Assembly (NCBI RefSeq): GCF_020097155.1
Contig: NZ_CP083691.1
Span: 1,922,001 to 1,986,000, forward strand
DNA: 64,000 nucleotides
Direction: 5' to 3'
Source: Micrococcus porci
GTDB taxonomy: Bacteria; Actinomycetota; Actinomycetes; Actinomycetales; Micrococcaceae
Made by a program: the position numbers and the translations under genes
In this document: in pieces, positions 17,759 to 33,979 of the stretch
How the letters are laid out: each line of letters starts with the position of its first letter
Position numbering within the stretch: the stretch's first letter is position 1
The notes under the pieces: model-generated
Databases searched by the model: none
What the model saw: the letters and a program-made list of their open reading frames with translations, nothing else
Told to the model about the DNA's origin: nothing

Positions 17759-18175
17759 GGCAGCACCTCCCGCCGGGCGGCGGTCCACACCGTCCGTCGC
17801 GCGGCGACTCAGGCCCGCCGCCGGCCGCGTTGCCCCGTCGACGCGCAGGGCGTCCTCGGGTGCGCCGGGAGACGGGCTCCAGGAAAGTCCGGTGATGGAC
17901 CACGGGCGCCAGGGGCGTTCCCGCGGAACCGCTGCGACGCACCGATCCGGGCCCTCTCGGATGTCCTCGCCGGGCGGCGCCCCGGCCGTCCCGGATCCCG
18001 GGGCGGGCGCGTCCCGGGGTCCCGGGCGGGCGTCACGGCGGCGGCCCGTGGGCGGGCGCGCAGCGGGCAGACCCGCGGTGTGGGCACGGATCGACCGGTC
18101 GCCATTCTCTCATACCCGTCCCAAGGCGACCCCACGCAGGCCGCAACGCACCGCGGGCCCGCCCAGGGCCGGTGC
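17759..18175. other. rne upstream region, no gene
   Basis: 417 bases without a credible gene. It contains several G+C hairpins but no convincing -10/-35 pair on the minus strand. It would form a long rne leader if transcription starts near the transposon edge at 18176; long leaders are used for RNase E autoregulation in enterobacteria, but nothing here proves that. Confidence 0.4.
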
Positions 18176-19162
18176 CTAGATGTACTGATCGGGGACGTTG
18201 GTCAATCGTGAGAACGGCGGCTGGTTCCCGCAGGCGGTGTGGGGCCGGTGCTGGTTGTAGTAGTGCAGCCAGCCATCGAGCTCGCCGCGTCGTTCGGCCT
18301 CGGAGGTGTAGCAGCGGGCGTAGGCCCACCCATCGGCCAGGGTCCGATGGAATCTCTCGATCTTGCCGTTGGTCTGCGGCCGATACGGTCGCGTGCGCTT
18401 GTGCTTGATGCCGAGCTCGTGACAGGTATCCCGCCACAGGTGCGATCGGTAGGCGCCGCCGTTGTCTGACAGCACCCGCTCGACGGTCACACCTCGCCGG
18501 TTGAACCACTCCACGGCCCGCACCAGCACGGCCGAGGCTGTCACGGCGGTTTCGTCGTCGTGGATCTCGGCGTAGGCGACGCGGGAGTGGTCGTCGATGA
18601 CGGTGTGGACGTAGGCCTTGCCCATCAACGGGTCGGAGTACTTGCTCCTGAGCTTGCCTGGTGTAGCTGCCCGGTTCTTCTCGCCCTGGCGGCGTCCGAC
18701 GTAGCGCCAGCCTCCCCCATCGGGGATGTTGCCGAGCTTCTTCACGTCGACGTGGAGCATCGCGCCGGGATGGTCGTGCTCGTAACGGCGCACCGGTTCC
18801 CCCGTGGCGCGGTCCACATGCGACAGCCGGTTCAGGTGGGCGTCGGTCAGGATCCGGTGGACCGTCGACGGCGCGATCCCCAGCCGACATGCCAACTGCA
18901 CGGGTCCTTCTCGGAGTCGGAGCCGCAGCTGGATACAGCGGCGAGTGACCGTCGGGCTGGTCTTGTTCGGTGAGTGGTGCGGTCGCGAAGAGCGGTCCTG
19001 CATGGACTCGCCCGCTCGGTGGCGGTCCGCCCAGCGCTTCACGGTGGGCCAGGAGACCTGGAAGCGGGCGGCAACCTCGCTGATCGGCCATCCGTCGTCG
19101 ACGACGAGTTGGGCGACCTTCAAGCGGTGGCGAGGTGTGAGGGCGGCGTTGGCATGGGACAT
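18176..19162 (-). CDS. IS481-family transposase (Tn A)
   Basis: 328 residues. An N-terminal pair of helix-turn-helix units (LKVAQLVVDDGWPISEVAARF; SWPTVKRWADRH) is followed by an integrase core with the DDE triad: HTVIDDHSRVAY, LSDNGGAYRSH and NGKIERFHRTLADGW. The ATG at 19162 follows GGAGC. The stop TAG is the reverse complement of the first three bases of the CTAG target, so it is provided by the host flank rather than by the element. Length and motifs are complete, so it may be active. Confidence 0.9.
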   Translation of the reverse strand: MSHANAALTPRHRLKVAQLVVDDGWPISEVAARFQVSWPTVKRWADRHRAGESMQDRSSRPHHSPNKTSPTVTRRCIQLRLRLREGPVQLACRLGIAPSTVHRILTDAHLNRLSHVDRATGEPVRRYEHDHPGAMLHVDVKKLGNIPDGGGWRYVGRRQGEKNRAATPGKLRSKYSDPLMGKAYVHTVIDDHSRVAYAEIHDDETAVTASAVLVRAVEWFNRRGVTVERVLSDNGGAYRSHLWRDTCHELGIKHKRTRPYRPQTNGKIERFHRTLADGWAYARCYTSEAERRGELDGWLHYYNQHRPHTACGNQPPFSRLTNVPDQYI

Positions 19163-19173
19163 GGCTGCTCCAT

Positions 19174-19212
19174 GCGGCAGCGGGCGGCCCAAGAGGGGCC
19201 GCCCGCTGCCGC
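19174..19212. terminator. Insulating terminator between Tn A cargo and transposase
   Basis: A perfect 17-bp stem GCGGCAGCGGGCGGCCC with its complement, loop AAGAG, lies between the oxidoreductase stop (19235) and the transposase start. It would keep cargo transcription from entering the transposase gene. Confidence 0.75.
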
Positions 19213-19234
19213 TGTTGGTCGTTGAAGTGTCAGG

Positions 19235-20104
19235 TCACAAGGCGGGGATCAGTTCCTCTTGCATCCAGCCAGCAAGGCTCGTTGGAGTCGTGCTGGTTGC
19301 TGTGCGCAGTTGTTCCGGGTGGAAGTCGTCGCGCAGTCCAGTGCTCATGCCCAACACGGCGTCGGCCATTGCCGGGGGCATGCCAGCCGTGAGGTATTGC
19401 TGGCGCATCAGGTCATCGCTGATCTGCTCTGCCTGGACATGCCGCCCGGTCAGGTCGGTGAGAAGCGCGGCCACGTCGTTCCACGACAGATCCTGCGGGC
19501 CATGGACCGCCTGTACCCGATGTCCATGCCACGACGGGTTCAGCAGTGTCAGCGCGGCAACCTCGGCGATGTCGCGCGGCGAGACCCAGCTGAACTGATG
19601 GTCCAGAGGCAGGACCGTCCGCAACCGTCCCTGGCGCACATCCTCCATGCTCAGCAGCAGGTTGGTGAAGAAGTAGCCGCAACGCAGGTGCGTCACGTCC
19701 GCGTCCAGGCGGTCGAGGGCGACCTCGGTGGCGGCGAGGCCGTCGATCTCACCGACCCCATGCCGCTTCTCCGCACCGACGCTGCTCTGGAACACGACCC
19801 GAGCAATGGTATTCGCCTCGACCGCGGCGACGATGGCCTGCGTCGCCCTGGCGTAGTCAGCCAGCGGATCAGCCGATGCGGTGCTCGGGTCGACCCAGTA
19901 GATGGCATCTACCCCGCGGGTGGCCTTCACGACCTGCTCGGGGTCAGTGGAGTCAGCTTCCACGACGTCGACGTGTGTGAGGAGATCGATGGGGATCTTG
20001 GATGGGGTGCGGGCCAGAAGCAGTGGCCGCACACCGGCACGGATCATCATGCCGGTCAGGTGGGTGCCGACATTTCCTGTCGGGGTGGTCACAGCGATAC
20101 GCAT
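19235..20104 (-). CDS. NmrA-like NAD(P)-binding oxidoreductase, cargo of Tn A
   Basis: 289 residues. The Rossmann start MRIAVTTPTGNVGTHL has the TGxxG variant typical of atypical short-chain dehydrogenases; VEADSTDPEQVVKATRGVDAIYWV and FQSSVGAEKRHGVGEIDGLAATEVAL follow the NmrA/quinone oxidoreductase pattern, and no classical YxxxK pair is visible. Such proteins act as NAD(P)H-dependent quinone or azo reductases or as redox sensors. It is transcribed away from the WYL regulator with 87 bp between, so the regulator probably controls it. Its substrate is unknown. Presence inside transposon ends indicates transfer. Confidence 0.8.
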   Translation of the reverse strand: MRIAVTTPTGNVGTHLTGMMIRAGVRPLLLARTPSKIPIDLLTHVDVVEADSTDPEQVVKATRGVDAIYWVDPSTASADPLADYARATQAIVAAVEANTIARVVFQSSVGAEKRHGVGEIDGLAATEVALDRLDADVTHLRCGYFFTNLLLSMEDVRQGRLRTVLPLDHQFSWVSPRDIAEVAALTLLNPSWHGHRVQAVHGPQDLSWNDVAALLTDLTGRHVQAEQISDDLMRQQYLTAGMPPAMADAVLGMSTGLRDDFHPEQLRTATSTTPTSLAGWMQEELIPAL

Positions 20105-20179
20105 TGGAGTCTCTTCTCAGGGCCGCTCATGCTCCGACGCTACCGAGAGACGAGGCCTGTTCCTGGCCGCATCTCGACG

Positions 20180-20185
20180 GATAAT
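20180..20185 (+). promoter_or_regulatory. -10 element of the Tn A WYL gene
   Basis: GATAAT lies 6 bp before the ATG at 20192, which implies a leaderless transcript; no ribosome-binding sequence precedes the start. The -35 is unclear. Confidence 0.4.
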
Positions 20186-20191
20186 CGATGC

Positions 20192-20905
20192 ATGGACAGT
20201 CCCTCGGCACGCTCGCTACGCCTGTTGGCGCTGCTGCAAACGGGACGTCGGTGGACCGTGGCTGACCTGAGCCGCCGACTCGAGGTGGCACCTCGGACGG
20301 TTCGCCGTGATGTCGCCCGGCTGCGGATGCTGGGCTACGACATTCAGTCCCACCCGGGCCCCGGCGGGGCATACGTTCTTGCCCCGAGCATCAAGATCCC
20401 ACCGCTTCTCCTGGACGCCGACGAGGTCTGCGCGCTTGTCACGGGGCTCCTCATCCTTGAAGCAGGCTTCGCAGACGACAGCGCAACTACCGTGAGAGCC
20501 AAGCTTGAGCGACTTCTACCTCCCAGCCTGCGTCAACGAGCCGTCGCCGCTGCCGCGGCTACCCAGGTCCTCACCGCCACGCACGCGTTCGATTGGCCCG
20601 CCCTGGGGATGATCGCGGACACCATCGCGGTTGGACAGCATCTGGGCTTCGCATACACCGACCAACACGGTCACGCGAGCAACCGGATCGTTCAGCCGTA
20701 CCGCCAGGTCCTGCGCCACGGCATCTGGTACCTCGTCGCCTACGACACGCAGCGTGAGGACTGGCGCCTGTTCCGCAGCGACCGCGTTCACGAACCTGAG
20801 CCCCGAACGCCAGCACCGGGATACGAGGCCCACCCCTTCCCTGACGAGTCCATCCACCGCTGGCTCATCACCGACTTCGGACGCGCCGCACAACACGTCA
20901 ACTAA
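20192..20905 (+). CDS. HTH/WYL transcriptional regulator, cargo of Tn A
   Basis: 237 residues. An N-terminal winged helix (SLRLLALLQTGRRWTVADLSRRLEVAPRTVRRDVARLRMLGY) is followed by a linker and a WYL domain, seen as YRQVLRHGIWYLVAYDTQREDWRLFRSDRV (about 165-195). WYL proteins of the YafY type bind a ligand and repress or activate a neighbouring divergent gene. The stop lies 22 nt inside the right transposon end. It shares architecture with the regulator at 31196-31888, cargo of the second transposon. The most likely target is the oxidoreductase promoter. Confidence 0.85.
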   Translation: MDSPSARSLRLLALLQTGRRWTVADLSRRLEVAPRTVRRDVARLRMLGYDIQSHPGPGGAYVLAPSIKIPPLLLDADEVCALVTGLLILEAGFADDSATTVRAKLERLLPPSLRQRAVAAAAATQVLTATHAFDWPALGMIADTIAVGQHLGFAYTDQHGHASNRIVQPYRQVLRHGIWYLVAYDTQREDWRLFRSDRVHEPEPRTPAPGYEAHPFPDESIHRWLITDFGRAAQHVN

Positions 20906-20928
20906 CGTCCTCGGGTAGTACAACTAAG

Positions 20929-20962
20929 CCAGTTCTCGAGCGTCAACGGCGTCGAGAACTGG
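20929..20962. repeat. Perfect palindrome just outside Tn A
   Basis: CCAGTTCTCGA (20929-20939) and TCGAGAACTGG (20952-20962) are exact complements around 12 nt, beginning one base after the transposon edge. It could be a terminator, a regulator site or a preferred landing structure. Confidence 0.5.
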
Positions 20963-21065
20963 TTGCAGCAGCCTGGGCACGCACACCATGGCTGAACCCT
21001 AGCCAGGGGCCCTGGTGGGACCGGGCCGCGCCTCATGCGGGCGGGGAATCGGGTCCCGTGGACCC

Positions 21066-22427
21066 TCACCGCCGCCCGAAGCCAGCCAGCATCACGGCGA
21101 GGTCGTCCTCTGCGCCGGCCCGAGCACCCGACGTGCTGCCCAGGGCCTCTGCGGTGAGGCGCCCGATGTGCACAGCGGCCGGCGCTGGTGCGGGTGCACC
21201 GGCGGGCAGGGCGAGGTCGTGATGGTGCACGGCGAGCTCCACGGCCCAGGTGGCCAGCATGTCCCCGGCGGTGAGCACATGGCCCTGGAACGCGATCGAC
21301 TCCTCGATCAGAGTGTCCGCTGCATGTCGCAGTCCTGCACTCACCTGGTTCAGGTGCTCAAGCGCGTTCCTGGGACGGGCATAAGCGGAAGCGGTGCGGC
21401 GCGTCATGAGGATCCCGGGCACCGGGTCCTTCTCCGGTTCGTACGTGGTCCAGTAGGACGCGGCGTCGACATCGGGGGTGTCGTCCGTGCGGGCCGCCAG
21501 GCCGGCGAGCATCTCCTGCAGCCCCAGGCGCACGTGCACCAGGCAGTCGAGCCGAGACCAGCCGTGGACGTGGCTGACTCCGAGCAGGGTGAGGTCGTCG
21601 AGAGAGCTGGCGCCCTCCTCGAAGGCGTCGAGCGCGGCGAGGAACGCCGTTCGGGCCTCGGCCAGGGGGACGCTGTAGGGCTTCATGACTGTCGGTTCCT
21701 CCTCCAGGCTCCGGCCTCGGAGGTGTGACGCGACGGTGATCAGCTCGGCGTTCCCGGGCGCTGGGCGGCCGTCAGCGAACGTCACCATGTCCTCCAGCCC
21801 TGCTCGCGTGTCTAGTCCGAGCCGTCCAGCCAGCTTGAGGGCGGGCCAGGCAGACCGCTCCTCGCCGTGGAGCAGCAGGGGCATGGCCGGTTCAGCGCGG
21901 CGGACGCCCTGGACGAGCACGAGCGCCTCGGACTCCACCTCCTCCGCGGGTATGTCCTGCACCTCGATCAGCACGCGCAGGCACCGCGACCGCAGGGGTG
22001 AGGCAAGCCATGCGGTGAGGCCCTCCTGGTGCCAGATGCCGGCTTCGACGCCGATGCCTCGGTCCAGGAGCGTCGCCGCGATCTGGTCGGCACCGGGTTC
22101 ATGCCAGTTCACGGAGGCGAAGTCCGGCAGCGTCTGCCAACCAACGATCGCCTGCCGTCGGTCCTCCACCGACGGTAGAGCCCAAGCTCCCGTCGTCACC
22201 CCCACCGGGACGCCGGCGCATCGCGCCCTCACTTCGCGGACCCAGCGGCCGACGTCGGGGTTCTGGAGGCTGTCCTGTCCGTGAGCGTCCTTCGGGTGGA
22301 CGTGGACGGCGTCAGCTCCGGCCGCGACGGCCTCGGCACACTCGGCTGCCACGCGGACGGGGTCGGCGCTGAGAGCGGGGTGCTCGGCGATGTCGCGGGC
22401 TCCGTTGACGCAGACCTGAAGCATCAT
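21066..22427 (-). CDS. BKACE-type protein fused to a DinB/maleylpyruvate isomerase-like domain
   Basis: 453 residues. Residues 1 to ~245 resemble the 3-keto-5-aminohexanoate cleavage (BKACE) family: MLQVCVNGARDIAEHPALS, GADAVHVHPKDAHGQDSL (metal HxH), VPVGVTTGAWALP and SVNWHEPGA. BKACE enzymes condense beta-keto acids with acetyl-CoA. After SLEEEPTV a second domain starts at MKPYSVPLAEARTAFLAALDAF, with GWSRLDCLVHVRLGLQEMLAGL and WAVELAVHHHDLALP, as in the TIGR03083/maleylpyruvate isomerase group. GGAGGAGG lies about 10 nt before that internal ATG, so this may be a fusion of two formerly separate genes. The ATG at 22427 has TAGTGT 7 bp upstream (leaderless). Confidence 0.65.
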   Translation of the reverse strand: MMLQVCVNGARDIAEHPALSADPVRVAAECAEAVAAGADAVHVHPKDAHGQDSLQNPDVGRWVREVRARCAGVPVGVTTGAWALPSVEDRRQAIVGWQTLPDFASVNWHEPGADQIAATLLDRGIGVEAGIWHQEGLTAWLASPLRSRCLRVLIEVQDIPAEEVESEALVLVQGVRRAEPAMPLLLHGEERSAWPALKLAGRLGLDTRAGLEDMVTFADGRPAPGNAELITVASHLRGRSLEEEPTVMKPYSVPLAEARTAFLAALDAFEEGASSLDDLTLLGVSHVHGWSRLDCLVHVRLGLQEMLAGLAARTDDTPDVDAASYWTTYEPEKDPVPGILMTRRTASAYARPRNALEHLNQVSAGLRHAADTLIEESIAFQGHVLTAGDMLATWAVELAVHHHDLALPAGAPAPAPAAVHIGRLTAEALGSTSGARAGAEDDLAVMLAGFGRR

Positions 22428-22764
22428 GCCCAATACACTACCGACCCTCTCGAGTCCCTCCATCGGTAGCGGCGCATAGCCATGTAGGAGCCGGGAGTGT
22501 CGAGTTGCAGCCCAGATTCCACACGACGCGCGGCGAACTCTTCGCATATCGGGCGGGATCCGGTTGGCGTGAAAACTGGGTGTCCAGGTGGGTGCTCCCG
22601 GGCGCCCCAAGACTCGCCAGAAACGTACGGGCGGCTGCGGCTCTGGCGGGTTGGTTGTGGCGAGTCATGTGGCGGGCGGACAGGGCCGGAGGTGGCGCGC
22701 ACGGCGCACGGCGGGACCCCTCGCCACAAACGACCGATTCTGCCGCCCGGCCGTGGGCCAGGAG
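22428..22764. other. Intergenic region, no gene seen
   Basis: 337 bases between two minus-strand genes. Apart from the -10 above and one copy of a 14-bp repeat (22723-22736) I see nothing I can name. Confidence 0.4.
22435..22440 (-). promoter_or_regulatory. -10 element of the BKACE fusion gene
   Basis: TAGTGT is 7 bp before the ATG, consistent with a leaderless mRNA and with choosing 22427 over the longer open frame. Confidence 0.4.
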
Positions 22765-23643
22765 TCAGGACGGGAGGAAGAACTCAGTCAGAACAGCGGT
22801 GAGCTGTTCGGGGTTGTCTTCGGCCATGTGGTGGCCGGAGTCGATGACGGCGCTTTCGGGGCGATGGGCGCACCAGGATTCCCACACTTCCGCCGGGTTC
22901 CCGTAGAGGTCCTCCATGTCGTCGTGCTTCGACCATGCGACCAGCGTGGGGCACTGGATCTGATGGCCGCGTGCACGGTCGCGTGCATCGGCGTCTCGGT
23001 CGACGTGGAGGCTGGCCCGGTAGTCCGCGATCATGGAGCGCACGGTCTGAGGGTCGCTGATGGCGGCCACCATGTCCTGGTAGTTCTCCTGTCCCATCTT
23101 CTGGGCGTCGGGCTGGTACCAGGCCAAGGGGTCCGCGCAGATCACTCGCTCGGCGTGGGGGGAGGCGAAGAAGAACCAGTGCCACCACTTCTCCGCGAAG
23201 CGGGCATCAGCGCGCTCGAGGGCCTCCAGGATCGGGACGCAGTCCAATACAGCCATACGGTCCACCCGCTCTGGAAAGTCCAGGGCGGTGCGGTACGCCA
23301 CGTAGCTGCCCCGGTCGTGGCCGACGACGCTGAAGTGATCGTGGCCGAGGTGCGTCATGAGCAGGGCGATGTCGCCGGCCATGGTGCGGTCGCTGTGGGT
23401 GTGAAGGTCGTCGCTGGGCTCTGGGGCGCTGGACTGCCCGTATCCGCGCAGGTCCGGGCAGACCACCCGGAGACCCGCGTCTGCCAGAGCGGGGGCGACC
23501 CTATGCCAGGTTGCATGGGTGCGAGGGTGGCCGTGGAGGAGGACGACTGCCGGCCCTTCGCCCCCGGTGGCGACGCGAAGCGTGACGCCCGACGGCAGCG
23601 GGATGTGTTCGAGGGCGAAGCCGGGAATCGTCATGACGCTCAT
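22765..23643 (-). CDS. Alpha/beta hydrolase, haloacetate-dehalogenase-like
   Basis: 292 residues. The fold is clear: oxyanion segment VVLLHGHPRTHATWHRVAP, DLRGYGQSS, nucleophile elbow VVGHDRGSYVAYRTAL (Asp in GHDRG), and a late GHHMAEDNPEQL carrying the catalytic histidine. An Asp nucleophile and the paired Arg of HPRTH and the RG after the nucleophile are typical of fluoroacetate dehalogenases and epoxide hydrolases; WHWFFFASP supports the former. It is cytoplasmic with no signal peptide. The start was placed at the ATG 23643 because homology begins there; ribosome binding is weak. A 14-bp direct repeat flanks the gene. Confidence 0.75.
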   Translation of the reverse strand: MSVMTIPGFALEHIPLPSGVTLRVATGGEGPAVVLLHGHPRTHATWHRVAPALADAGLRVVCPDLRGYGQSSAPEPSDDLHTHSDRTMAGDIALLMTHLGHDHFSVVGHDRGSYVAYRTALDFPERVDRMAVLDCVPILEALERADARFAEKWWHWFFFASPHAERVICADPLAWYQPDAQKMGQENYQDMVAAISDPQTVRSMIADYRASLHVDRDADARDRARGHQIQCPTLVAWSKHDDMEDLYGNPAEVWESWCAHRPESAVIDSGHHMAEDNPEQLTAVLTEFFLPS

Positions 23644-23779
23644 CGTCGAGGACCGTTGCCCATGACACAAGGCGGCGATCGAAGTGGTGTCGGTGCCGAG
23701 TCTACTGGCGAAGAGGTGAGCGGCCACAAACGACCGTTTACGCCCGTGTCAGGGATCGCCAAAGCCCTGACTTGGCACC

Positions 23780-24001
23780 TCAACGGGATCGGTTTCGAGG
23801 GTGTTGACGCGCTTGACGCTCATTTCCTCTGCGGTAGTTGCCTGTCAGGCGCGCCATGAACTCCTGGGGGTCGCCCGCTTCGACGTCCTCTAAGAAGGAA
23901 GCCGCTCTGACGCCCCGCAAGACCGTCGCCTGCTTGCCGCGATGCGTAATGATCACTTCACCAGCTCGTTCGACGTAATCGAACCCCTCAGGTCTTGGCA
24001 T
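23780..24001 (-). CDS. Phd/YefM antitoxin-like small protein
   Basis: 73 residues, with AGEVIITHRGKQATVLRGVRAASFLEDVE resembling the beta-hairpin and helix of Phd/YefM antitoxins, which bind operator DNA through this part and a toxin through the C-terminus. The C-terminal third is short and basic. No RelE- or Doc-like gene follows it on either strand before 23643, so it is an orphan or the toxin was lost when the region was rearranged. Confidence 0.5.
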   Translation of the reverse strand: MPRPEGFDYVERAGEVIITHRGKQATVLRGVRAASFLEDVEAGDPQEFMARLTGNYRRGNERQARQHPRNRSR

Positions 24002-24121
24002 AACGGCGAGCCTACTGATCAGGCCTCCCCTCGGACCAGCACATTTTTCTGAGGCGTGAGCGGCCGCAGCGCCGCCGTGTAGCTCAAACGAAGGTGAAGC
24101 GTCCCGGGTTTCGTGCCGCTC

Positions 24122-25057
24122 CTATGTGGGTGCCAGCTCTCGGTTGAGGGCGGCGTAGTAGGCAGTCTCGTACTCGGCCGGGGTGGTCATAGCCAGGGAC
24201 GAGTGGAGCCTTCGATTGTTGTACCACTCGACCCATCCGGCGGTGGCGTACTCCACGTCGGCGATGGTCTTGTACGGGCCGTTGTGGAAGATCGTGGTGG
24301 TGATGCACTCGGTCCTGTACAAGCCGATGACGCATTCCATGAGCGCGTTGTCATACGCATCGGCGACGGTCCCGATGGACGCGGCGATGCCCTCGGCGGC
24401 CAGGTGCTCGGCGAAGCAAAGGCTCGTGTACTGCGACCCGGCATCGCTGTGCGCGATCAGCTCGCCGGGCTGCACAGGGTGCCCGTGCCGGTCACGGTCC
24501 CACAACGCGATCCGCAGCGGGGTCAGAACCAGCGGGGTCGTCTTGGCCGTCGCGGCATGCCAGGCGAGGATTCTCTGCGAGTAGCAGTCCAGCACGAACG
24601 CGACGTATACGAAGCCCGCCCACGTGCGCACATAGGTGAAGTCCGCGACCCACTTCGTGTTCGGCGCGGCCGCGGTGAAGTCTCGATTGAGCAGGTCACC
24701 GGCACGGCAGCCGTCCTTGGCCGGGACGGTGGTGCGCACTGGCCTGCCTCGACGCACACCGTTCATCCCCGCAACCCGCATGAGCCGGTCCACACGACCG
24801 GCGCCGACCTGGTGACCTTCTCGACGCAGCCACGCGGTCATCTTCCGACGCCCGTACAGCCCTTCCGGGGTGCCGACAAGGTCGTGCAGGACGTTGAGCA
24901 GGACCGCGTCGGACGTGTCACGAGCCGACGCGCTGCGGCGGCGCCACGCCCGGTAGGTGCGTGCGGCGATCTGACAGCCCTCCTGACGGAGCACCCTGCA
25001 GATCGACTCGACCGCATGCCCCTTGGCGCGCATCTGATCGATGAATCCCATGATCAT
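24122..25057 (-). CDS. IS3-family transposase OrfB
   Basis: 311 residues. An HTH_21-type start (ALLNVLHD-like region, GLYGRRKMTAWLRREGH) precedes an rve core with WVADFTYVRTWAGFVYVAFVLDCY (D), IAHSDAGSQYTSLCF (D) and YDNALMECVIGLYRTE (E). The start overlaps the OrfA stop by four bases (ATGA), and the -1 frame is open upstream through the GATTTTC run, so it can be made by coupling or as an OrfAB fusion by -1 frameshifting. All catalytic residues are present. Confidence 0.88.
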   Translation of the reverse strand: MIMGFIDQMRAKGHAVESICRVLRQEGCQIAARTYRAWRRRSASARDTSDAVLLNVLHDLVGTPEGLYGRRKMTAWLRREGHQVGAGRVDRLMRVAGMNGVRRGRPVRTTVPAKDGCRAGDLLNRDFTAAAPNTKWVADFTYVRTWAGFVYVAFVLDCYSQRILAWHAATAKTTPLVLTPLRIALWDRDRHGHPVQPGELIAHSDAGSQYTSLCFAEHLAAEGIAASIGTVADAYDNALMECVIGLYRTECITTTIFHNGPYKTIADVEYATAGWVEWYNNRRLHSSLAMTTPAEYETAYYAALNRELAPT

Positions 25058-25365
25058 CGGTTGCGGGGGTCGAGCTCCCCCGCGAAGAAAATCGAGGCCT
25101 TGCGCAGGATCTCGTTGTCCTCCCGCAATCGCTTGACCTCGCCGCGCAGGCGCTTGAGCTCGGCCAGGTCATCGCTGGTCGGCCCGTCCTTGAGGCCGGC
25201 GTCGACGCGGTGCTGACAGACCCAGCGGCGCAAGGTCTCGCGCCCCACGTCGACCTTCGGCGACACCAAAGCCACGGCCTTCGTGACTGACCCGGCTTCC
25301 TCGACACGGTCCAGGACCATCCGCACCGCGCGGTCCTTCACCTCGGGATCGAACTTCTTCGGCAT
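25054..25365 (-). CDS. IS3-family transposase OrfA
   Basis: 103 residues from MPKKFDPEVKDRAVRMVLDRV. A helix-turn-helix (GRETLRRWVCQHRVDAGL) and a leucine-zipper-like coil (ELKRLRGEVKRLREDNEILRKASIFFA) are typical of OrfA. GAGAGG lies upstream of the chosen ATG. Confidence 0.85.
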   Translation of the reverse strand: MPKKFDPEVKDRAVRMVLDRVEEAGSVTKAVALVSPKVDVGRETLRRWVCQHRVDAGLKDGPTSDDLAELKRLRGEVKRLREDNEILRKASIFFAGELDPRNR

Positions 25366-25419
25366 GAACAACATCCTCTCGAACTCGAAAGGAAGCGGCA
25401 TCACACCCTGGACGCTTCA

Positions 25420-25749
25420 GGTGCGCTGATGACGACACTTGAACCCGGTTGTCAACTCAAGTTGACGCGGCGAGCCTCGCTTGAAAGACGTGTGGCAGCT
25501 CATGAGGCGCTCCGGGCTGGGGTTGACTCAGGCGGGTCCGCTCGCGGAACAGACGTCTGGCCGACGATGATCAGGCGATGGGACGCTCCGGCTGGGCGCT
25601 GCTAAAGACGGCGGTCGTGCACCGGGCAGATGATCTTTCCCGGCGATGGACGTCGCGCGGGGTGCGCTCACCGGACTGGAGGCTCAGTCGCGGCTAGCTT
25701 AAAGTCGGGGTGCCAGCGTCTATGTAGTGTCGCAGGCTGGGTAAGGTGA
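25420..25749. other. Intergenic region, no gene seen
   Basis: 330 bases between the IS3 element and the ArsR gene. It has mixed composition and short open frames only; I recognise no RNA gene, promoter or repeat. It may be debris of earlier insertions. Confidence 0.4.
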
Positions 25750-26067
25750 TCAGTCGCCGCTGTCGCTTCCGATGAGGTCGAGCAGGCCCGGGAAGCGCGC
25801 ATCGAGGTCGCGCCTGCGCAGAGTCACCTCGCTGCGGTTGCCCCGGTCGACCTGGTGCACCAGCCCGGCCTCGCGGAGCACCTTGAAGTGATGACTGCGC
25901 GTGGACTTCGACAGGTCCAGGCCGAAGCTCGTGCAGGAGCGCTCGCTGCCGTCCGCATCGTTCACCAGGTCATGAATGACGCGCCGCCGATGAGGGTCGG
26001 CCAGCGCCGACAGCACCGCACCGAGCTCGATCTCGTCCGGCTCCACACCGTCGGTCCTGCCAGCCAT
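25750..26067 (-). CDS. ArsR-family transcriptional regulator
   Basis: 105 residues. The winged helix reads ELGAVLSALADPHRRRVIHDL, then SKSTRSHHFKVLREAGLVHQVDRGNRSEVTLRR. SerSCTSFGLD contains one cysteine, but there is no ELCVCDL metal site, so it is probably not a classical metal sensor. GGAGGG lies 5 nt before the ATG at 26067, which decides against the longer frame from 26121. It is divergent from an MFS exporter, and the region between them contains paired operator-like repeats. Confidence 0.85.
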   Translation of the reverse strand: MAGRTDGVEPDEIELGAVLSALADPHRRRVIHDLVNDADGSERSCTSFGLDLSKSTRSHHFKVLREAGLVHQVDRGNRSEVTLRRRDLDARFPGLLDLIGSDSGD

Positions 26068-26099
26068 CGTCGCCCTCCATCTCCGTACAGCATCAAAGG

Positions 26100-26177
26100 T
26101 TCGACTTGCATCGTACCTCATGGTCGTGCCAGTCTAGCTACGTTCGTTCTGTATCGAACCTCTGTCATGTATCGAAC
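26100..26177. promoter_or_regulatory. Operator cluster between arsR-like and MFS genes
   Basis: Two inverted repeats with the same spacing occur: GTTCG-N8-CGTAC (26100-26117) and GTTCG-N8-CGAAC (26142-26159), and a third GTATCGAAC half-site follows at 26169-26177, just before the MFS ribosome-binding site. They are the best candidates for binding of the ArsR-type regulator to both promoters. Confidence 0.55.
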
Positions 26178-26191
26178 CAAAGGAGTGCCCC

Positions 26192-27475
26192 GTGCCTCGA
26201 CCTAGACTGCTGCTGGCCGTGATCCTGCTCGCTCAGTTCGTGATCCCGTTGTCCATCTCCGGCACCGCCGTCGCGCTCCCTGCGATCGCCAGCGACCTGG
26301 GTTCGGACCCGACGCCGTTGCAGTGGGTAGTCAACGGCTTCAACGTCGCCTTCGCGGTCTGCACGATCGTGTGGGGCGCCTGCTCCGACCGGATCGGCTA
26401 CACGCGCTCGTTCCGGATCGGCATCGCCATCGCCATAGCCGGGGGCATCGTCAGCATGTTCGCCCCGAACATCGCCGTGCTGGACGCGGGCAGGATCATC
26501 GCCGGAATCGGCTCAGCCGCGGTACTCACCAGTGCCGCACCGATCCTCAGCCACCTATTCGAGGGCAAGGCCAGAGCGCAGGCGTTCGCGCTGTTCGGCA
26601 CAATCAACGGCCTCGGCCTCGCCGCCGGCCCTGCCCTATCGGGTCTGCTCCTGTCCGCCTGGGGATGGCAGGGCATCTTCGCCGCGCACACGATCGTCCT
26701 GATTGTCGCGTTCATCGGTGCCGCACGGCTTCCCCAGCTTGGTCGGGGCGGAACCTCGCTGCGGGAGATCCTCGACTTCTCCGCGCTGAAGGCTCCGAAG
26801 TTCCTCGCCATGACACTCGTGCCGATCGCCGGGGCAATCGGCTTCGTGACGTTCCTGACCTACCTCCCCAGCGCGCTCGGAGCCATCCACGGGCTCACCG
26901 CCGGAGTCACCGGCGCACTGATGCTTGTCATGACTATCCCGGTGCTCATCGCCCCGGTCGCGGTTCACCGTCTCATGGAACGCAGCCACCTCACCCCGAC
27001 CGCCATCGTCGCCGTCTCGTTCGCGTGCCTCATCGTCGGCGGCATCGGCGTGCTCTTGTTGCTAAGGCCCGATCTGCCGGTCGCACTCGGCGTCACTCCG
27101 ATGATCCTGCTCGGCCTGGGCTTCGGCCTGCCGCTCGGGTTCGTCGACGCCGAAGCGCTGGCGGCCGTGCCCGCTGAACGAGCCGGAGCCGCCTCGGGCG
27201 TCATCAACCTCTTCCGCATCGGCTCTGAGGCAGTGTTCGTCGCCGCCTACGGCGCGCTCCTCGCCGCCGTCATCACCACAACCCTCCCCGGCACCACCGG
27301 TGAACTGATCGCTTCCGGCAGCCCGGGCGAACCGTGGATATACCACAGCGGCCTCATGGCCGCCGCCGGAACCATGATCGGGCTCGTCGCCATCGCCGGT
27401 GTCACGTTCCTCGCTCTCACCCGCGCCGCCAACCGCAGTGCCGTCACCGCCAGGCAGGTCGAAGTAGCGCGCTGA
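26192..27475 (+). CDS. MFS transporter (drug exporter type)
   Basis: 427 residues, GTG start 7 nt after AGGAG. About 12 to 14 hydrophobic segments are present. Motif A-like GACSDRIGYTRSFRIG lies between helices 2 and 3, and AGRIIAGIGSAAVLTSAAPILSHLF and GLAAGPALSGLLLSAWGWQGIF match the DHA2-like drug/H+ antiporters. Control by the divergent ArsR-type gene is likely. The substrate is unknown. The gene ends 9 bp before an IS256 end. Confidence 0.85.
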   Translation: MPRPRLLLAVILLAQFVIPLSISGTAVALPAIASDLGSDPTPLQWVVNGFNVAFAVCTIVWGACSDRIGYTRSFRIGIAIAIAGGIVSMFAPNIAVLDAGRIIAGIGSAAVLTSAAPILSHLFEGKARAQAFALFGTINGLGLAAGPALSGLLLSAWGWQGIFAAHTIVLIVAFIGAARLPQLGRGGTSLREILDFSALKAPKFLAMTLVPIAGAIGFVTFLTYLPSALGAIHGLTAGVTGALMLVMTIPVLIAPVAVHRLMERSHLTPTAIVAVSFACLIVGGIGVLLLLRPDLPVALGVTPMILLGLGFGLPLGFVDAEALAAVPAERAGAASGVINLFRIGSEAVFVAAYGALLAAVITTTLPGTTGELIASGSPGEPWIYHSGLMAAAGTMIGLVAIAGVTFLALTRAANRSAVTARQVEVAR

Positions 27476-27483
27476 GACGAAGA

Positions 27484-28261
27484 GGGGACTGTAAGAACAA
27501 CGGTGTGTGAGGGTCCGGCCTGATCCGAAAGGAGACGGCCGTGTCAGAGTCCACGACCGAGATGACAGGCCCGATGATCGATCCCGTGACCGGAGAGATC
27601 ATCGATCAAAAGGACCTCGCCGAGCAGCTGCTCGCCCAGGCCAAGGAGCAAGGCGTGCGCCTGGTCGGGCCCGGCGGCCTGCTGAACCAGCTCACGAAGA
27701 ACGTCCTCGAGACCGCCCTGGAAGCCGAGCTGACCGAGCACCTCGGGCACGACCACGGGCAGACCCCGATCGCGGCCAACATGCGCAACGGCACGAGGTC
27801 GAAGACCGTGCTGACCGAGATCGGCCCGGTCGAGATCGAGGTGCCCCGGGACCGGGACGGGTCCTTCGAGCCGGTGATTGTGCCCAAACGGAAGCGGCGC
27901 CTGGACGGGACCGACCAGATCGTGCTCTCTCTGTCAGCCCGCGGGCTGACCACCGGAGAGATCGCGGTGCACTTCGAGGAGGTCTACGGTGCGAAGGTCT
28001 CCAAGGACACCATCAGCCGGATCACCGAGAAGGTCGCCGGCGAACTGGCCGAGTGGTCCTCCCGTCCGCTGGACCCGCTCTAACCGGTGCTCTTCGTCGA
28101 CGCGATTGTCGTGAAGGTCCGCGACGGGCAGGTGCGCAACACGCCGTTCTACGTCGTCATGGGCGTCACCGTGCACGGGGAACGCGACATCCTCGGGATC
28201 TGGGCCGGCGACGGCGCCGAAGGCGCCCGGTTCTGGCTGCAGGTCTTCTCCGAGCTGAAGA
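27484..28261 (+). mobile_element. IS256-family fragment, left part
   Basis: A plausible left end (GGGACTGTAAGAACAACGG near 27485) and about 60% of a mutator-type transposase remain. The right part has been replaced by an IS3-family element whose first base is 28262. Confidence 0.7.
27541..28261 (+). pseudogene. IS256/mutator-type transposase, nonsense mutated and truncated
   Basis: GTG start with AAAGGAG upstream. The reading MSESTTEMTGPMIDPV... through HLGHDHGQTP, NMRNGTRSKTVLTEIGPVEI and GAKVSKDTISRITEKV is standard for the family. After SSRPLDPL a TAA (28081-28083) stands where the family has Tyr; downstream the same frame continues PVLFVDAIVVKVRDGQVRN with the first catalytic Asp and ends at FSELK, cut by the IS3 element. 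The rest of the catalytic domain is absent from the window. Confidence 0.85.
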
Positions 28262-28279
28262 TGAATCGCCCCGGGTTTG

Positions 28280-29290
28280 TTAGAGGCTCGTAAGTGCCGT
28301 CCCGGCGGGCGCGGGCGCGGGGTTCTCATGATGGTAGACGTCCTCGAACTCGACCGGAGGGACCAGCCTGATCTCGCCGTGCACACGACGATGGTTGAAC
28401 CAGTCGACGTACTCCGCGACCGCGATCGCCAGGTCCTCGATGGACGTGAACGGGCCCTTGTTCCGGATCAGCTCGGCCTTGAACAGCGAGTTGAACGCCT
28501 CCGCGAGGACACTTATCGTAAGAATCCCCCGCCGAGCCGACCGAGGCGACTGCGCCGGCCTCGGCCAGCCGCTGGGTGTTCGCACGGCGACGTACTGGAC
28601 TCCTTTATCGCTGTGATGCCGTAGCCCGGCCACGTCTTGGCCTGCACGCTGACGCGTCCAGAACGCCATCTCCAACGCGTCCAGGGCCAGGTCCGTGCGC
28701 AGCGACTTCGACAGCTGCCAGCCCAGCACCCGTCGGGAGAACACGTCGATGATGAACGCGGCGTACACCCATCCGCTGAAAGTGCGGCAGTAGGTGATGT
28801 CAGCGACCCACAGCTGGTTCGGAGCCGCCGCGGTGAAGTCTCGCTGGACCAGGTCTTGACGCTCATCCGGGCCGCGGCCTGGGACCGTGGTCCTCGGTCC
28901 CTTCGCGCGGCTGATCCCGCCCAGGCCTGCGGCTCGCATGAGCCGCTCCACCGTGCACCTGGCCACCTGCAGGCCCTCCCTCCGCAGTTGCGCGTGGACC
29001 TTCCGGGCCCCGTAGAGCCCGTAGTTGGCCTCATGCACCCGCCGGATTTCCACGAGCACCTGCACATCGCGCAGGCTGCGCACTGAAGGAGGGCGCGTCT
29101 TGGCCGCGTAGTACGTGCTCGGTGCGATCTGTGTGCCTGCCGCGGACAGCGTGGCGCAGATCGGCTCGACACCGAACTCGTGCTTGTGTTCGTCGATGTA
29201 GTCCACGATCAGCGCTGTGGGCGTCTCGAGCATCCGCCGCGAAGAAAGCCGACGCCGAGCGCAGGATCGCGTTCGCCCGCCGTAGTTCAC
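28280..29290 (-). CDS. IS3-family transposase OrfB, probably inactive
   Basis: The open frame gives 336 residues; the real OrfB part starts near MLETPTALIVDYIDEHKHEFG (29233) and is normally made by -1 frameshifting from OrfA at the GGCTTTCTTCG run. QLWVADITYCRTFSGWVYAAFIID and HHSDKGVQYVAVR carry the two Asp residues, and LAEAFNSLFKAELI the Glu. Between VAVR and LAEAF about 24 residues are in the wrong frame (28512-28582): one base is missing near 28580 and one is gained near 28512, so the conserved SYDNA segment is lost. Confidence 0.75.
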   Translation of the reverse strand: MNYGGRTRSCARRRLSSRRMLETPTALIVDYIDEHKHEFGVEPICATLSAAGTQIAPSTYYAAKTRPPSVRSLRDVQVLVEIRRVHEANYGLYGARKVHAQLRREGLQVARCTVERLMRAAGLGGISRAKGPRTTVPGRGPDERQDLVQRDFTAAAPNQLWVADITYCRTFSGWVYAAFIIDVFSRRVLGWQLSKSLRTDLALDALEMAFWTRQRAGQDVAGLRHHSDKGVQYVAVRTPSGWPRPAQSPRSARRGILTISVLAEAFNSLFKAELIRNKGPFTSIEDLAIAVAEYVDWFNHRRVHGEIRLVPPVEFEDVYHHENPAPAPAGTALTSL

Positions 29291-29528
29291 GGTTCTCCTT
29301 CTCCAGCTCGGCCACCCGGGCGGCTTCGCTGGTCGTGATTCCGGGGCGGTGGCCGTGGTCGATCTCGGCTTGGCGGACCCAGTTGCGCAGCGTCTCGGGA
29401 TTGATCCCGAGCTGTTCTCCTACGCGGCGGAATGCTCCGGTCCTCGTGGCGGGGTCTTGACGGGCTTCCAGTGTCATCCGCGTGGCGCGTTCGCGGAGCT
29501 CGTCGGGGTACTTCCGTGGTGCGGGCAT
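29031..29528 (-). CDS. IS3-family transposase OrfA
   Basis: MPAPRKYPDELRERATRMTLEAR, a helix-turn-helix in GINPETLRNWVRQAEI and the coil EAARVAELEKENRELRRANAILRSASAFFA are typical OrfA. GGAAGG lies 9 nt before the ATG at 29528. The frame stays open after the expected OrfA end, giving 165 residues; the part after about residue 100 is antisense-like noise overlapping OrfB. Confidence 0.75.
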   Translation of the reverse strand: MPAPRKYPDELRERATRMTLEARQDPATRTGAFRRVGEQLGINPETLRNWVRQAEIDHGHRPGITTSEAARVAELEKENRELRRANAILRSASAFFAADARDAHSADRGLHRRTQARVRCRADLRHAVRGRHTDRTEHVLRGQDAPSFSAQPARCAGARGNPAGA

Positions 29529-29577
29529 GCTCTGCATCCTTCCGTTGGATCAGAGCCTCCACCAGACCCGGAGCGAT

Positions 29578-30324
29578 TCAGTCGCAGGTGTCGCGCCACA
29601 GGTGTGACCGGTATGCCCCGCCATTGTCAGACAGCACCCGTTCGATGGTGACGCCGCGGTTTGCGAACCACTCGACCGCCCGGTGCAGGACGGCGACGGC
29701 GGTGATGGCAGTCTCGTCGTCGTGGACCTCGGTGTACGCGACGCGGGAGTGGTCGTCGATGACGGTGTGCACAAACGCGTACCCAAGCTTTGGGTTGTGC
29801 CACTTGTTCTTCGGCTTCCCGGGCGTGGCGGCGCGGTTGCGTTCGCCTTGGAGTCGGCCGACATAGCGCCAGCCGCCGCCGTCGGGGATATTCCCGAGCT
29901 TCTTCACGTCCACGTGCACCAGCGAGCCGGGATGGGGGTGTTCGTACCGGCGGATCGGCTCGCCGGTGGCACGGTCGACGTAGGACAGCCGGTTGAGGCG
30001 TGCCGTCGTGAGGATTCGGTGCACCGTCGATGGTGCGATGCCGAGTCGAGCGGCGAGCTGAACTGGGCCTTCGCGCAACCGCATTCGCAGGCTGACGCAC
30101 CGCTTGGTCACCGTCTTCGGGGTCTTGTTCGGCGACACCCTCGGGCGCGAAGACCGGTCTTCCATGGACTCACCGGCGAGGTAGCGGTCGACCCACCGCT
30201 TCACCGTCGGCCAGGACACCTGGAAGCGGGCAGCAATCTCGCTGATCGGCCACCCGTCCTCGACGACGAGGCGAGCGACCTTCAGGCGGTGGCGGGGTGT
30301 CAGGGCGGCGTTCTTGTGGCTCAT
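29578..30324 (-). pseudogene. IS481-family transposase of Tn B, C-terminally truncated
   Basis: 248 residues from MSHKNAALTPRHRLKVARLV. The helix-turn-helix pair and the two Asp motifs HTVIDDHSRVAY and LSDNGGAYRSH are present, then the frame meets the IS3 element and stops (TGA spans the junction). The NGKIERFHRT segment with the catalytic Glu is missing, so it cannot be active. It is about 80% identical by eye to the Tn A transposase. Confidence 0.88.
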
Positions 30325-30342
30325 GGGGGCTTTCGGAACGGG

Positions 30343-30378
30343 ATGAAGGGGGACAGCGCAGTGGCTGTCCCCCTTCAT
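30343..30378. terminator. Insulating terminator between Tn B cargo and transposase
   Basis: A perfect 15-bp stem ATGAAGGGGGACAGC with its complement, loop GCAGTG, occupies the same place as the terminator of Tn A but has a different sequence. Confidence 0.75.
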
Positions 30379-30392
30379 CGGCGAGGAGGAAC

Positions 30393-31121
30393 CTAGGAGG
30401 CGAGAGCGGCGGTGGCGATCGCCTTGCCCAGATCCTCGGGGCGGCTCCACATCGGCCAGTGACCAGTAGGCAGGTCGATGAACTGGACGTCGATCAGGTC
30501 GTTGACGGCGGCGAACATAGGGTGTCGTGCCTGGGCCAGCTCAAGGACCTGGCTGGACGGCAGGGAGCAGCAGATCAGAGTGGTCGGCACGCCGTAGCGC
30601 CGATCATTGTTCAAAGAGACCGAGGCGCGGGCGACACCTGCAGGCTCGGGAACAGCGCGGGCGCGGAAGGTCTTGAGCTGGCCGTCGCTAAGCCCTTCGA
30701 GGCTGGCCTGCTGACCGAGCGTGTCAAAGTCAGGCAGCGGGAGCTCCTCGATGTCTTGCGGGAGCTCCGGCGCGAAGGCTGCTCCGTCCGTCATGGGCCC
30801 GGAATCGACCCAGATGACCCGGCGGAGCAGCTGCGGGATCCTGTCCGTGACAGTGCTTACCGCGGCGTTGGCGCCGCTGTGGCCCACGAGAACGACGTCG
30901 CCGCCGGCCTGTTCGACAAGGGCCTGGAGGGCATTGACCTGCTCCTGCAGAGTGGCGTTCTTCCGGTTGAGATCTTGCTCGTCGAGGCCCGGCGGGGTGA
31001 CGGCCTCGACGTCGAGCCCGTGCTCCTTCAGGGCGGGCACTACGTCATCCCAGGCCCAGGCGCCCAGCCAGTAGCCGGGAACGAGGATGACGTGCGGTTG
31101 GTCCGTTGCGTTCGATGTCAT
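30393..31121 (-). CDS. Alpha/beta hydrolase, cargo of Tn B
   Basis: 242 residues from ATG 31121. VILVPGYWLGAWAWDDVVPAL is the oxyanion region, VVLVGHSGANAAVS the Ser nucleophile elbow, and LPTGHWPMWSRPEDL the histidine loop. It resembles the esterase/hydrolase group often annotated as salicylate-binding or RutD-like; the substrate cannot be told. It is divergent from the WYL gene with 74 bp between, and its TAG stop lies in a CTAG. The ORF upstream of 31121 is antisense to the regulator and was not used. Confidence 0.82.
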   Translation of the reverse strand: MTSNATDQPHVILVPGYWLGAWAWDDVVPALKEHGLDVEAVTPPGLDEQDLNRKNATLQEQVNALQALVEQAGGDVVLVGHSGANAAVSTVTDRIPQLLRRVIWVDSGPMTDGAAFAPELPQDIEELPLPDFDTLGQQASLEGLSDGQLKTFRARAVPEPAGVARASVSLNNDRRYGVPTTLICCSLPSSQVLELAQARHPMFAAVNDLIDVQFIDLPTGHWPMWSRPEDLGKAIATAALAS

Positions 31122-31195
31122 GTGCTCGATGCTGGCAGGGCTCCTGGACAACGGAGTGGCACTATTTGTGACATGAATGTGGCGATGGTTCCCTG

Positions 31196-31888
31196 ATGAA
31201 GCGTTCGGAACGCCTCCACGCACTGTCGGAGGCGCTCAGGCGCGGCGGGAAGCGTGGGAGGAGCGCGGAGGGACTGGCCCGTGAGTTCGGGGTGTCTGTC
31301 CGGACGATTAAAAGAGACCTGGCGGCACTCGAAGCATCCGGAGCGCCGCTGTGGTCCCGCCCTGGCCCAGGCGGAGGGTACGGGATCGTAGAAGGTGGTT
31401 CCCTGCCGCCGGTCGCATTGTCACCGGCTCAGGCCTTGGCACTGCTGGCAGCGGTCAAGGCCGCACCCGATGCGCCGTACTCCGATCTCGCTACAGCCGC
31501 CGTCCGCAAGATCGTGGATGTCCTCGACCCGCGCACTCGGGAGAAAGTAAGCGAGCTCGCGCAGCGAGTCTGGGTCGACTCGCCCCCCAGCACCTCTCGA
31601 TCCGTCCGCTCGACCTGCGAACAGGCCATGACAGATCAACGAGTGCTGCGCATCGACTTCGTCTCCGCCGCTGGCGAGCACACCCGTCGCGACGTCGAGC
31701 CCATTCTGTTCGCCGGCACCCGTGGTAGCTGGTACCTCATCGGGTGGTGTCGACTGCGCGGTGCTGTGCGGTGGTTCTCTCTCGACCGCATTCGCAAAGC
31801 TACGCTCACGCGCCATCCATGCTCGGGCCACACCGTCGACGAGATCGGCACACCACCGGACACCGCCGCCAGCGTCGCCTTGGACTGA
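31196..31888 (+). CDS. HTH/WYL transcriptional regulator, cargo of Tn B
   Basis: 230 residues. The winged helix is RLHALSEALRRGGKRGRSAEGLAREFGVSVRTIKRDLAALEASG, and the WYL domain carries VEPILFAGTRGSWYLIGWCRLRGAVRWFSLDRI. It ends 10 nt before the inverted-repeat end of Tn B. Its layout relative to the enzyme gene is the same as in Tn A, which suggests the regulator/enzyme pair moves as a unit. The two regulators share the domain plan but are clearly diverged. Confidence 0.85.
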   Translation: MKRSERLHALSEALRRGGKRGRSAEGLAREFGVSVRTIKRDLAALEASGAPLWSRPGPGGGYGIVEGGSLPPVALSPAQALALLAAVKAAPDAPYSDLATAAVRKIVDVLDPRTREKVSELAQRVWVDSPPSTSRSVRSTCEQAMTDQRVLRIDFVSAAGEHTRRDVEPILFAGTRGSWYLIGWCRLRGAVRWFSLDRIRKATLTRHPCSGHTVDEIGTPPDTAASVALD

Positions 31889-31925
31889 ACTCGATCGGGT
31901 CAATCAACGTCTCAGGGCAGTACAC

Positions 31926-32921
31926 CTAGATGTGATGTCCAGGGAGGTTGTTGAGCCTGCTGGCAGGTGCGGCTCCGATCGCGGAGTGGACTCGGTGATG
32001 ATTGTAGAAGTGCACCCACCCAGGCAACGCGGCCCTGCGTTCGGTCTCTGAGCCGTAGAACTTGGCGTAGGCCCACCCGTCAGCGAGCGTGCGATGGAAC
32101 CGCTCGATCTTCCCGTTCGTCTGCGGTCGGTAGGGCCGAGTCCGCTTGGGCTTGATCCCGAGCTCGGTGCAAGCATCCCGCCAGGCATGCGAGCGGTAGG
32201 CCGAACCGTTGTCCGAGAGCACCCGCTCCACCTCCACGCCCAGCTGCGCGAAGTGAGCGACCGCGCGGCGCAGCACCGCGATGGCGGTCTGGCTGCGTTC
32301 GTCGGAGTGCATCTCGACATACGCGAAGCGGGAGTGGTCATCGATCACGGTGTGCAGGAAGCCCACCCCGAGCCGGGGCTGGTATCGGGCATCACGGGTT
32401 CCTTCTCGGTCCGAAGTCGCCGCGCGGTGCTTCATGCCCTGCTGACGCCCGACGAATCGGTGCCCGCCCCCGTCGGGGATGCGTCCGAACTTCGTGACGT
32501 CGACGTGGATCAGCGAGCCGGGGTGGGGGTGCTCATAGCGGCGGATCGGCTCGGCGGTGACCCGGTCCAGACGGGCGAGGCGGTTGATCCGGCAGCGCAC
32601 GAGCACGGCATGGACGGTGGATGCCGGCATCCCGAGTTCTGAGGCGATCTGCACGGGCCCCAGGCGCCGGCGCCTTCTGGCGGCCACGATCTGTTTCACC
32701 ACTGCAGGCGATGTTCTGGTCGGCATCGTGGCCGGCCGGCTGGACCGGTCGACCATGCCTGCAGGTCCCTCGGCCCGGAAGCGGGTGGCCCATTTGCGTG
32801 CGGTGGGTGGGGAGACCATGAACATCTTGGCCGCGGTGGCGACCGCCCAGTGCTCATCGACGATGAGCTTGGCCAGGCGTAGACGGGCGCGAGGGGTCAG
32901 GGCGGCGTTAGCGTGGGACAT
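31926..32921 (-). CDS. IS481-family transposase
   Basis: 331 residues. Helix-turn-helix units ARLRLAKLIVDEHWAVATAAK and SPPTARKWATRFRA come first, then the DDE core HTVIDDHSRFAYVE, LSDNGSAYRSHAW and NGKIERFHRTLADGWAYAKF. The stop TAG is formed by the CTAG flank (…GHHI-TAG). It belongs to a different subgroup from the Tn A and Tn B enzymes, with weaker similarity in the middle. Apparently intact. Confidence 0.9.
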   Translation of the reverse strand: MSHANAALTPRARLRLAKLIVDEHWAVATAAKMFMVSPPTARKWATRFRAEGPAGMVDRSSRPATMPTRTSPAVVKQIVAARRRRRLGPVQIASELGMPASTVHAVLVRCRINRLARLDRVTAEPIRRYEHPHPGSLIHVDVTKFGRIPDGGGHRFVGRQQGMKHRAATSDREGTRDARYQPRLGVGFLHTVIDDHSRFAYVEMHSDERSQTAIAVLRRAVAHFAQLGVEVERVLSDNGSAYRSHAWRDACTELGIKPKRTRPYRPQTNGKIERFHRTLADGWAYAKFYGSETERRAALPGWVHFYNHHRVHSAIGAAPASRLNNLPGHHI

Positions 32922-33973: not shown

Positions 33974-33979
33974 GCCCCC

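Follow-up and report, generated by a model that had tools for sequence, protein, structure and literature searches.

Members of the IS481 family of insertion sequences (ISs) that carry passenger genes are mentioned in ISfinder and TnPedia. Two have been described as single elements, namely ISArsp12 (PMC6305408), with two passenger genes (ArsR and a permease), the inverted repeat TGTACTGACCGGACACGTTG and the direct repeat CCTAGA, and ISPfr21 (PMC2909200), also with two (TetR and one listed as unknown); in the available parts of these sources, neither a slot nor cargo exchange nor WYL is described. IS5564/Tn5564 with cmx is tabulated as IS481 (PMC8304765). TnRErm46 of Rhodococcus equi (PMC6794481) resembles the elements analyzed here in that it is IS481-driven, has an NCTAGN duplication, takes the TAG stop of its transposase from the target and combines TetR with other genes, but differs in its size (6.9 kb, seven open reading frames (ORFs)), its terminal repeat (TGTTGCGGGTCATGACGTTG) and its selection as a resistance element. 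Transporter ISs and mobile insertion cassettes (PMC3129680, PMC9330008) are general classes, with passenger genes inside an IS or, as in one locus below (L159), with ends and cargo but no transposase; an exchange slot or a regulator-effector rule is not described in the text available for them. Regulators and transporters, including MFS transporters with IS481, are enriched next to ISs (PMC9208149) and, in the available part of that study, are treated as insertion neighbors and not placed inside the element, unlike the cargo considered here.

We analyzed a window of 64,000 nucleotides from Micrococcus porci (contig NZ_CP083691.1, positions 1,922,001 to 1,986,000) that contains two elements, TnA and TnB, which very probably belong to a clade of IS481-family transposons that shuttle small cassettes of regulated genes. 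In such an element, the 3' end of the transposase gene would double as one terminal repeat, the opposite (outer) end would be a free stretch of about 25 bp, and the interval separating them would form a cargo slot holding a regulator, often divergent and beside the outer end, together with one to three effector genes mostly read toward the transposase. An earlier note on this DNA knew of no description of the layout; it is not without precedent, because ISPfr21, ISArsp12 and TnRErm46 are published as single cases, whereas no account of the clade, its slot or WYL cargo was found in the literature searched, most subscription papers as well as ISfinder and TnPedia lying outside that search. The ISArsp12 transposase is 85% identical to that of TnA in DNA, and two of the relatives identified below (L028 and L041) are of the ISArsp12 type.

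TnA (18181..20922, minus strand, 2742 bp) consists of a single transposase gene with passenger genes between two ends, the layout of a transporter IS, which is also that of the intact TnB homologue described below. The transposase (18176..19162, minus strand, 328 aa; identified by Pfam and NCBIfam) scores 347.6 bits against the IS481 model NF033577 (cut-off 224), and its TAG stop is supplied by the CTAG of the left target copy, CCTAGA at 18175..18180; a stop supplied by the target, as in TnRErm46, is found in the elements analyzed here. Before the transposase start lies a perfect 17-bp hairpin (19174..19212), followed by the cargo effector, an NmrA-like NAD(P)-binding protein (19235..20104, minus strand; Pfam NmrA 8e-15, with PDB relatives by sequence), a candidate operator dyad (20148..20174) and the divergent WYL regulator A (20192..20905, plus strand, 237 aa; Pfam WYL 2e-17), the stop codon of which falls within the outer repeat. 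Both ends start with TGT, as terminal inverted repeats of the IS481 family; the transposase-side repeat (18181..18205) recurs in relatives, and the outer end (20898..20922) is diverged from the consensus. Compared with the 20-mer at 18181, the outer ends of TnB and TnA have 4 and 5 mismatches, respectively (chance TG-starting sites per window, 0.05 at 4 and 0.05 at 5 mismatches; shuffles for repeats, hairpins, dyads and outer-end traces were all mononucleotide). Because an unrelated TG-starting site at 41377 also scores 5, the outer end of TnA was placed not by the match alone but by a copy of TnA in another genome of the same genus (G398), which lies at another site, is 98.4% identical over 2743 bp and has the same two ends between unrelated flanks. 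A more distant version, with an interrupted transposase and both ends, is present in G272 (L138). In the G398 copy (L182:6363-6385), a second repeat-like sequence abuts the transposase-side end head to head, resembling a joined-ends junction.

TnB shows the same order of features. Its transposase (29578..30324, minus strand; Pfam and sequence) is truncated to the first ~250 residues and, because it is cut at this point beside an IS3-type element, the window copy has no transposase-side end. A perfect 16-bp hairpin before the transposase start (30342..30379), an alpha/beta hydrolase as the cargo effector (30393..31121, minus strand; Pfam Abhydrolase_6 7e-14), a candidate operator block (31157..31173), the WYL regulator B (31196..31888, plus strand, 230 aa; Pfam WYL 1e-17) and the outer end (31900..31924) follow. 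In G132, a genome from another family, an intact TnB-type element with both ends lies between identical TCTAGC hexamers (identity to TnB, 97% for WYL, 91% for the hydrolase and 80% for the transposase), and a further one in G398 (L186) is flanked by GTTAGG and CCTAGG. The two WYL lines are only 28-33% identical in cross-matches, so that the pairs of TnA and TnB look like separate captures. Thus, the common design that had been noticed from the letters of the window (IS481 transposase, hairpin, enzyme, divergent WYL) is confirmed, with the genes identified by Pfam and NCBIfam, the two enzymes match different Pfam families, and both right-end repeats occur as ends of copies elsewhere (TnA in G398, TnB between identical flanks in G132); both transposons are real, with the amendment that TnB is truncated here.

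A scan of one genome per species yielded 289 relatives of the transposase, the best 80 of which were kept; both ends could be placed in 60 of these 80, and the other 20 were left out of the counts. The 60 two-ended relatives comprise 47 cargo elements (1851-5635 bp) and 13 plain ISs (1092-1170 bp). Identical flanking hexamers were found in 34/47 cargo elements and 12/13 plain ISs; when flanks were permuted among the 47, the mean number of identical pairs was 4.0 and the maximum in 1000 permutations was 12. Transposases of cargo elements are 77-96% identical to that of TnA and those of plain ISs 68-75%, except for L072 (83%). A maximum-likelihood tree was built from 63 transposases, omitting that of TnB and three others that were short; in it, 50 cargo elements and L072 form one branch (support 100/99), within which the same cargo appears on separate branches (WYL-VOC1, XRE-DUF2938, SRPBCC-MarR, DUF2268-MerR, LysR-EamA and ArsR-ArsP). 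Cargo does not follow the transposase tree; the number of exchanges is not fixed, because 11 forks are open and several are weak. A class-wide search at 1e-150 found 2 genomes besides the host among 394, so that the clade is thinly spread, and an order-level search at 1e-160 found 22 besides the host among 396. From 45 places obtained in a second search, 20 unlike the first set were fetched, and two that belonged to the first set after all (L192, L201) were dropped; the remaining 18 comprise 13 cargo elements (10 with identical flanks), 4 plain ISs and 1 undetermined.

The boundaries of the slot emerge from pairs of elements with unlike cargo and more than 80% identity, in which homology begins between −10 and +9 of the transposase start in 510/702 and between −20 and +19 in 615/702. 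At the opposite end, about 25 bp are common to the elements (consensus TGTACTGACCGGAGACGTTGATCGA), beyond which identity falls to the chance level (0.267 at positions 28-40). These 25 bp are almost unchanged in plain sister ISs, whose transposase starts 116-130 bp from the tip (188 in L072); thus, cargo takes the place of the leader of the plain IS. In a natural hybrid, L029, bases 1-148 match the LysR-EamA element L030 at 99% identity, and the sequence from base 146 on is 93% identical to the TetR-cupin-DUF4865 element L071; L029 is without its regulator. Recombination within the two shared parts, the transposase gene and the outer end, would be the means by which elements exchange cargo. As far as comparison of sequences can establish them, the two-ended structure, the CTAG target with a 6-bp duplication in most copies and the slot boundaries are demonstrated, as are the presence of copies in different species and families and of the same cargo on different transposases. 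The outer 25 bp shared with plain sister ISs, the pile-up of insertions at CTAG and a second IS481-type transposase near the outer end of one of the 47 elements (L084) would also suit composite transposons, each pair having originally lain between two IS481 copies, one of which has since degenerated to no more than an end. However, the other 46 slots contain no remnant of a second IS481 transposase (L079 has only the start of its own) and the outer ends share only chance identity beyond ~28 bp, which makes a composite origin improbable.

Perfect stems of at least 9 bp before the transposase start were present in 26 of the 51 cargo elements tested and in none of the 13 plain ISs, 12 of which form a strong imperfect hairpin there, as judged by folding energy. 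A perfect hairpin as a fixed rule of cargo elements was rejected, such stems being found in only 26/51, and so was the role of a plain terminator, given that there is no T run and that 12/13 plain ISs fold strongly at the same place. Of the perfect 17-bp and 15-bp terminators announced for TnA and TnB, the former length is correct, the latter is 16 bp, and the terminator function does not hold. Because the enzyme is upstream of the transposase, the hairpin lies between the enzyme stop and the transposase start, where it may serve as a leader structure that limits transposase expression by reducing read-through into the transposase.

The host genome contains three close relatives besides TnA and TnB, and 3 of these 5 elements carry WYL. 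E689 (G000:C1:689486-692976, 3491 bp) encodes a GlxA/AraC-type regulator, an alcohol dehydrogenase and SnoaL, its cargo proteins being 99% identical to those of L031 (B. equifaecis); E1412 (2041 bp) encodes MarR and a VOC protein between two ACTAGA copies; and E677 (677033-683026) encodes WYL, an MFS transporter and a UvrA-like protein between two CCTAGG copies. Counting these elements, there are 23 cargo types, all with a regulator accompanied by an enzyme, transporter or other effector. The regulators fall into ten classes (WYL, TetR, MarR, AraC with or without DJ-1/PfpI, LysR, ArsR, MerR, XRE-cupin, IclR-like and HTH_11 without WYL), and the effectors include VOC, RidA, NmrA, alpha/beta hydrolase, alcohol dehydrogenase with SnoaL, DJ-1 with DUF1348, SRPBCC, DUF2268, DUF4865 with cupin, SnoaL with DUF5655, DUF2938, EamA, MFS, ABC, ArsP and UvrA-like proteins. 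The VOC proteins, oxidoreductases, hydrolases, RidA, SnoaL and transporters among them suggest responses to toxic small molecules, but the ligand-controlled detoxification proposed in the earlier note stays a suggestion, backed by gene families and candidate dyads. Genes in relatives were called by a codon-position GC score, which picked wrong-strand shadows in several elements, and then by Pfam, for which each type was represented by one or two elements; the regulator of L086, first scored as lacking, was assigned by phmmer. The statement of the earlier note that the conserved unit is the design and not the gene holds over the 23 types, and its family of regulator/enzyme shuttles turns out larger than guessed, although WYL is one of ten classes (13/47 external elements, 6/23 cargo types) and the regulator is not always divergent. 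In 8/47 external elements as well as in E689 and E1412, a divergent regulator likewise has a stop supplied by the flank, its reading frame extending across the outer end.

A regulator homologue was detected in 46/47 slots compared with 1/138 random stretches of equal length beside the elements, a comparison that is partly circular, the queries having been taken from the same elements; when hits of the same type were removed, cross-type hits alone identified a regulator homologue in 30/47 slots. In the further sample, 10/13 cargo elements have a clear regulator (two WYL, IclR-like, Rrf2, two HxlR, two MerR, TetR and PadR), 8 of these assigned by Pfam, that of L197 by similarity and that of L204 only by the presence of a DUF2268 partner together with an ORF of suitable size. 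The slot counts bear on the view that the elements are ordinary transporter ISs, each of which picked up its cargo separately and by chance, with no preference for regulator pairs. Transporter ISs are a known kind (PMC3129680, PMC9330008), and single IS481 examples are published, but chance pickup agrees poorly with both slot counts (46/47 and 30/47) and with the single clade formed by the cargo transposases, and we consider it very improbable.

The effector promoter would be controlled by the regulator through a dyad in the shared intergenic region. All seven NmrA/WYL intergenic regions (two near-identical) contain a 10-7-10 dyad in register, with 6-9 of 10 positions complementary, and all 14 hydrolase/WYL regions contain a TGTCAC-ATTT-TGnCA block with 3-5 of 5 half-site positions. 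The regulators have the HTH and WYL domains, and the conserved candidate dyads hint that these proteins may bind the neighboring intergenic region.

Many transposase-free chromosomal pairs may represent settled former elements. Hydrolase/WYL pairs without an intact element were collected from the 11 best (L159-L169) among 31 matching genomes; a recognizable outer end follows the WYL gene in 6/11 (0 or 1 of 2000 shuffles as good) and no such end was recognized in the other 5. L168 retains transposase remnants, and L159 has both ends and no transposase. NmrA/WYL pairs without transposase occur in L135, L137, L139 and, in broken form, L134, with a weak outer-end trace in L135, which is on the host's own chromosome (2/2000 shuffles as good), and one in L139 (4/2000). 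Such persistence in genomes without the transposase speaks against the notion that the regulator and its partner serve the transposon itself, by controlling transposition, and not the host. This notion would account for the regulator in all 23 types and for effectors that mostly face the transposase (the nearest gene is + in 37/47, and among the remaining 10, 6 are of types with a + scanned effector), but plain sister ISs manage without regulator pairs, and the regulators and effectors come from unrelated families, with enzymes or transporters as partners. We therefore hold a transposon-serving role to be unlikely, by a wide measure.

An island of 15.8 kb (18181..33965), situated at a single CCTAGA site with the rne leader on one side and the VKOR gene on the other, is missing from this site in all seven same-genus relatives fetched out of 10 with a match to the left flank. 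In these, the sequences corresponding to window positions ~18116-18122 and ~33966-34072 are separated by 33-140 bp, with CCTAGA in the gap in 4, ACTAGA in 2 and no CTAG in G401, and the VKOR gene follows directly. Thus, the whole island entered at one CTAG; it is the island that is absent from the relatives, and enzyme-WYL pairs without transposase, which might have occupied this site, do not do so. CTAG is rarer than expected in the window (19 compared with 51 from the trinucleotide expectation), and, as it is duplicated at each insertion, the flank of one element becomes a target for the next. Accordingly, the right flank of TnB, CCTAGA at 31925..31930, is directly followed by a plain IS481 of another group (31931..33024, minus strand; identified by domain search and flank sequence), and another plain IS481 lies beside E677.

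Several observations weigh against the interpretation of TnA and TnB as members of a clade of cassette shuttles. The flanks are unlike in E689 and in 13/47 cargo relatives, and the two flanks disagree in all three TnA copies, which counts against a simple history; in the window they are CCTAGA on the left and ACTAAG on the right. Here, the left flank is the true target, and the right flank from 20922 on matches another locus of G397 and G401 at 85%; recombination between insertions at different sites would explain the discrepancy. The plain IS L072 sits inside the cargo clade, and the identity ranges of plain and cargo transposases touch at ~77% in the further sample. In that sample, no regulator was found in L195, and only an AbrB/MazE-type protein was found in L193 and L206. 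Finally, the dyads are not significant singly, shuffles being as good in 53/300 cases for TnA and 293/300 for TnB, so that the candidate operators remain a lead.

In the elements with unlike flanks (TnA, L138, L159, L186, L191 and E689), the outer flank is often TTAG/CTAA instead of CTAG, as if by a single C to T change.

The shuttles could conceivably work by a logic like that of a gene-cassette system but built from an IS, such that mobility is conferred on any promoter-effector pair that regulates itself and sits in the interval from the outer 25 bp to the transposase start. With the transposase located downstream of the effector and behind the hairpin, the compound that induces the cargo may increase transposition as well, and an element would then spread when its cargo is useful, leaving settled transposase-free pairs behind; we offer this open-slot scheme tentatively, as a rather unlikely extension. 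Through these elements, sensor, promoter and effector may travel together as a complete regulated function, mostly within 2-4 kb, from one member of the Actinomycetota to a distant one; this concrete route may account for part of the scattered distribution of regulator-enzyme pairs. They are easily missed because regulator and effector resemble chromosomal genes. Because the slot has such clear boundaries (~25 bp and the start codon), its mobility and the exchange of cargo are open to direct tests, and the slot elements link WYL regulators with particular partner genes and candidate operators.

Other parts of the island contain a single ORF (21066-22610) that matches a beta-keto acid cleavage enzyme domain and, weakly, a mycothiol maleylpyruvate isomerase domain; a divergent pair of an ArsR-type regulator and an MFS transporter (25750-27475) between IS3-type genes, which may be another former cassette; and, as its rightmost element (33030-33965), a two-ORF DDE element with the ends GGGCRTGTCTGA, likewise at CTAG. 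On a Micrococcus plasmid, an IS481 transposase lies beside Rrf2 and NAD(P)H-binding genes, an arrangement known by gene adjacency. The ArsR-ArsP element L041, of actinobacterial type, is on a contig labeled Vibrio cholerae strain 35D, which is likely a contamination.

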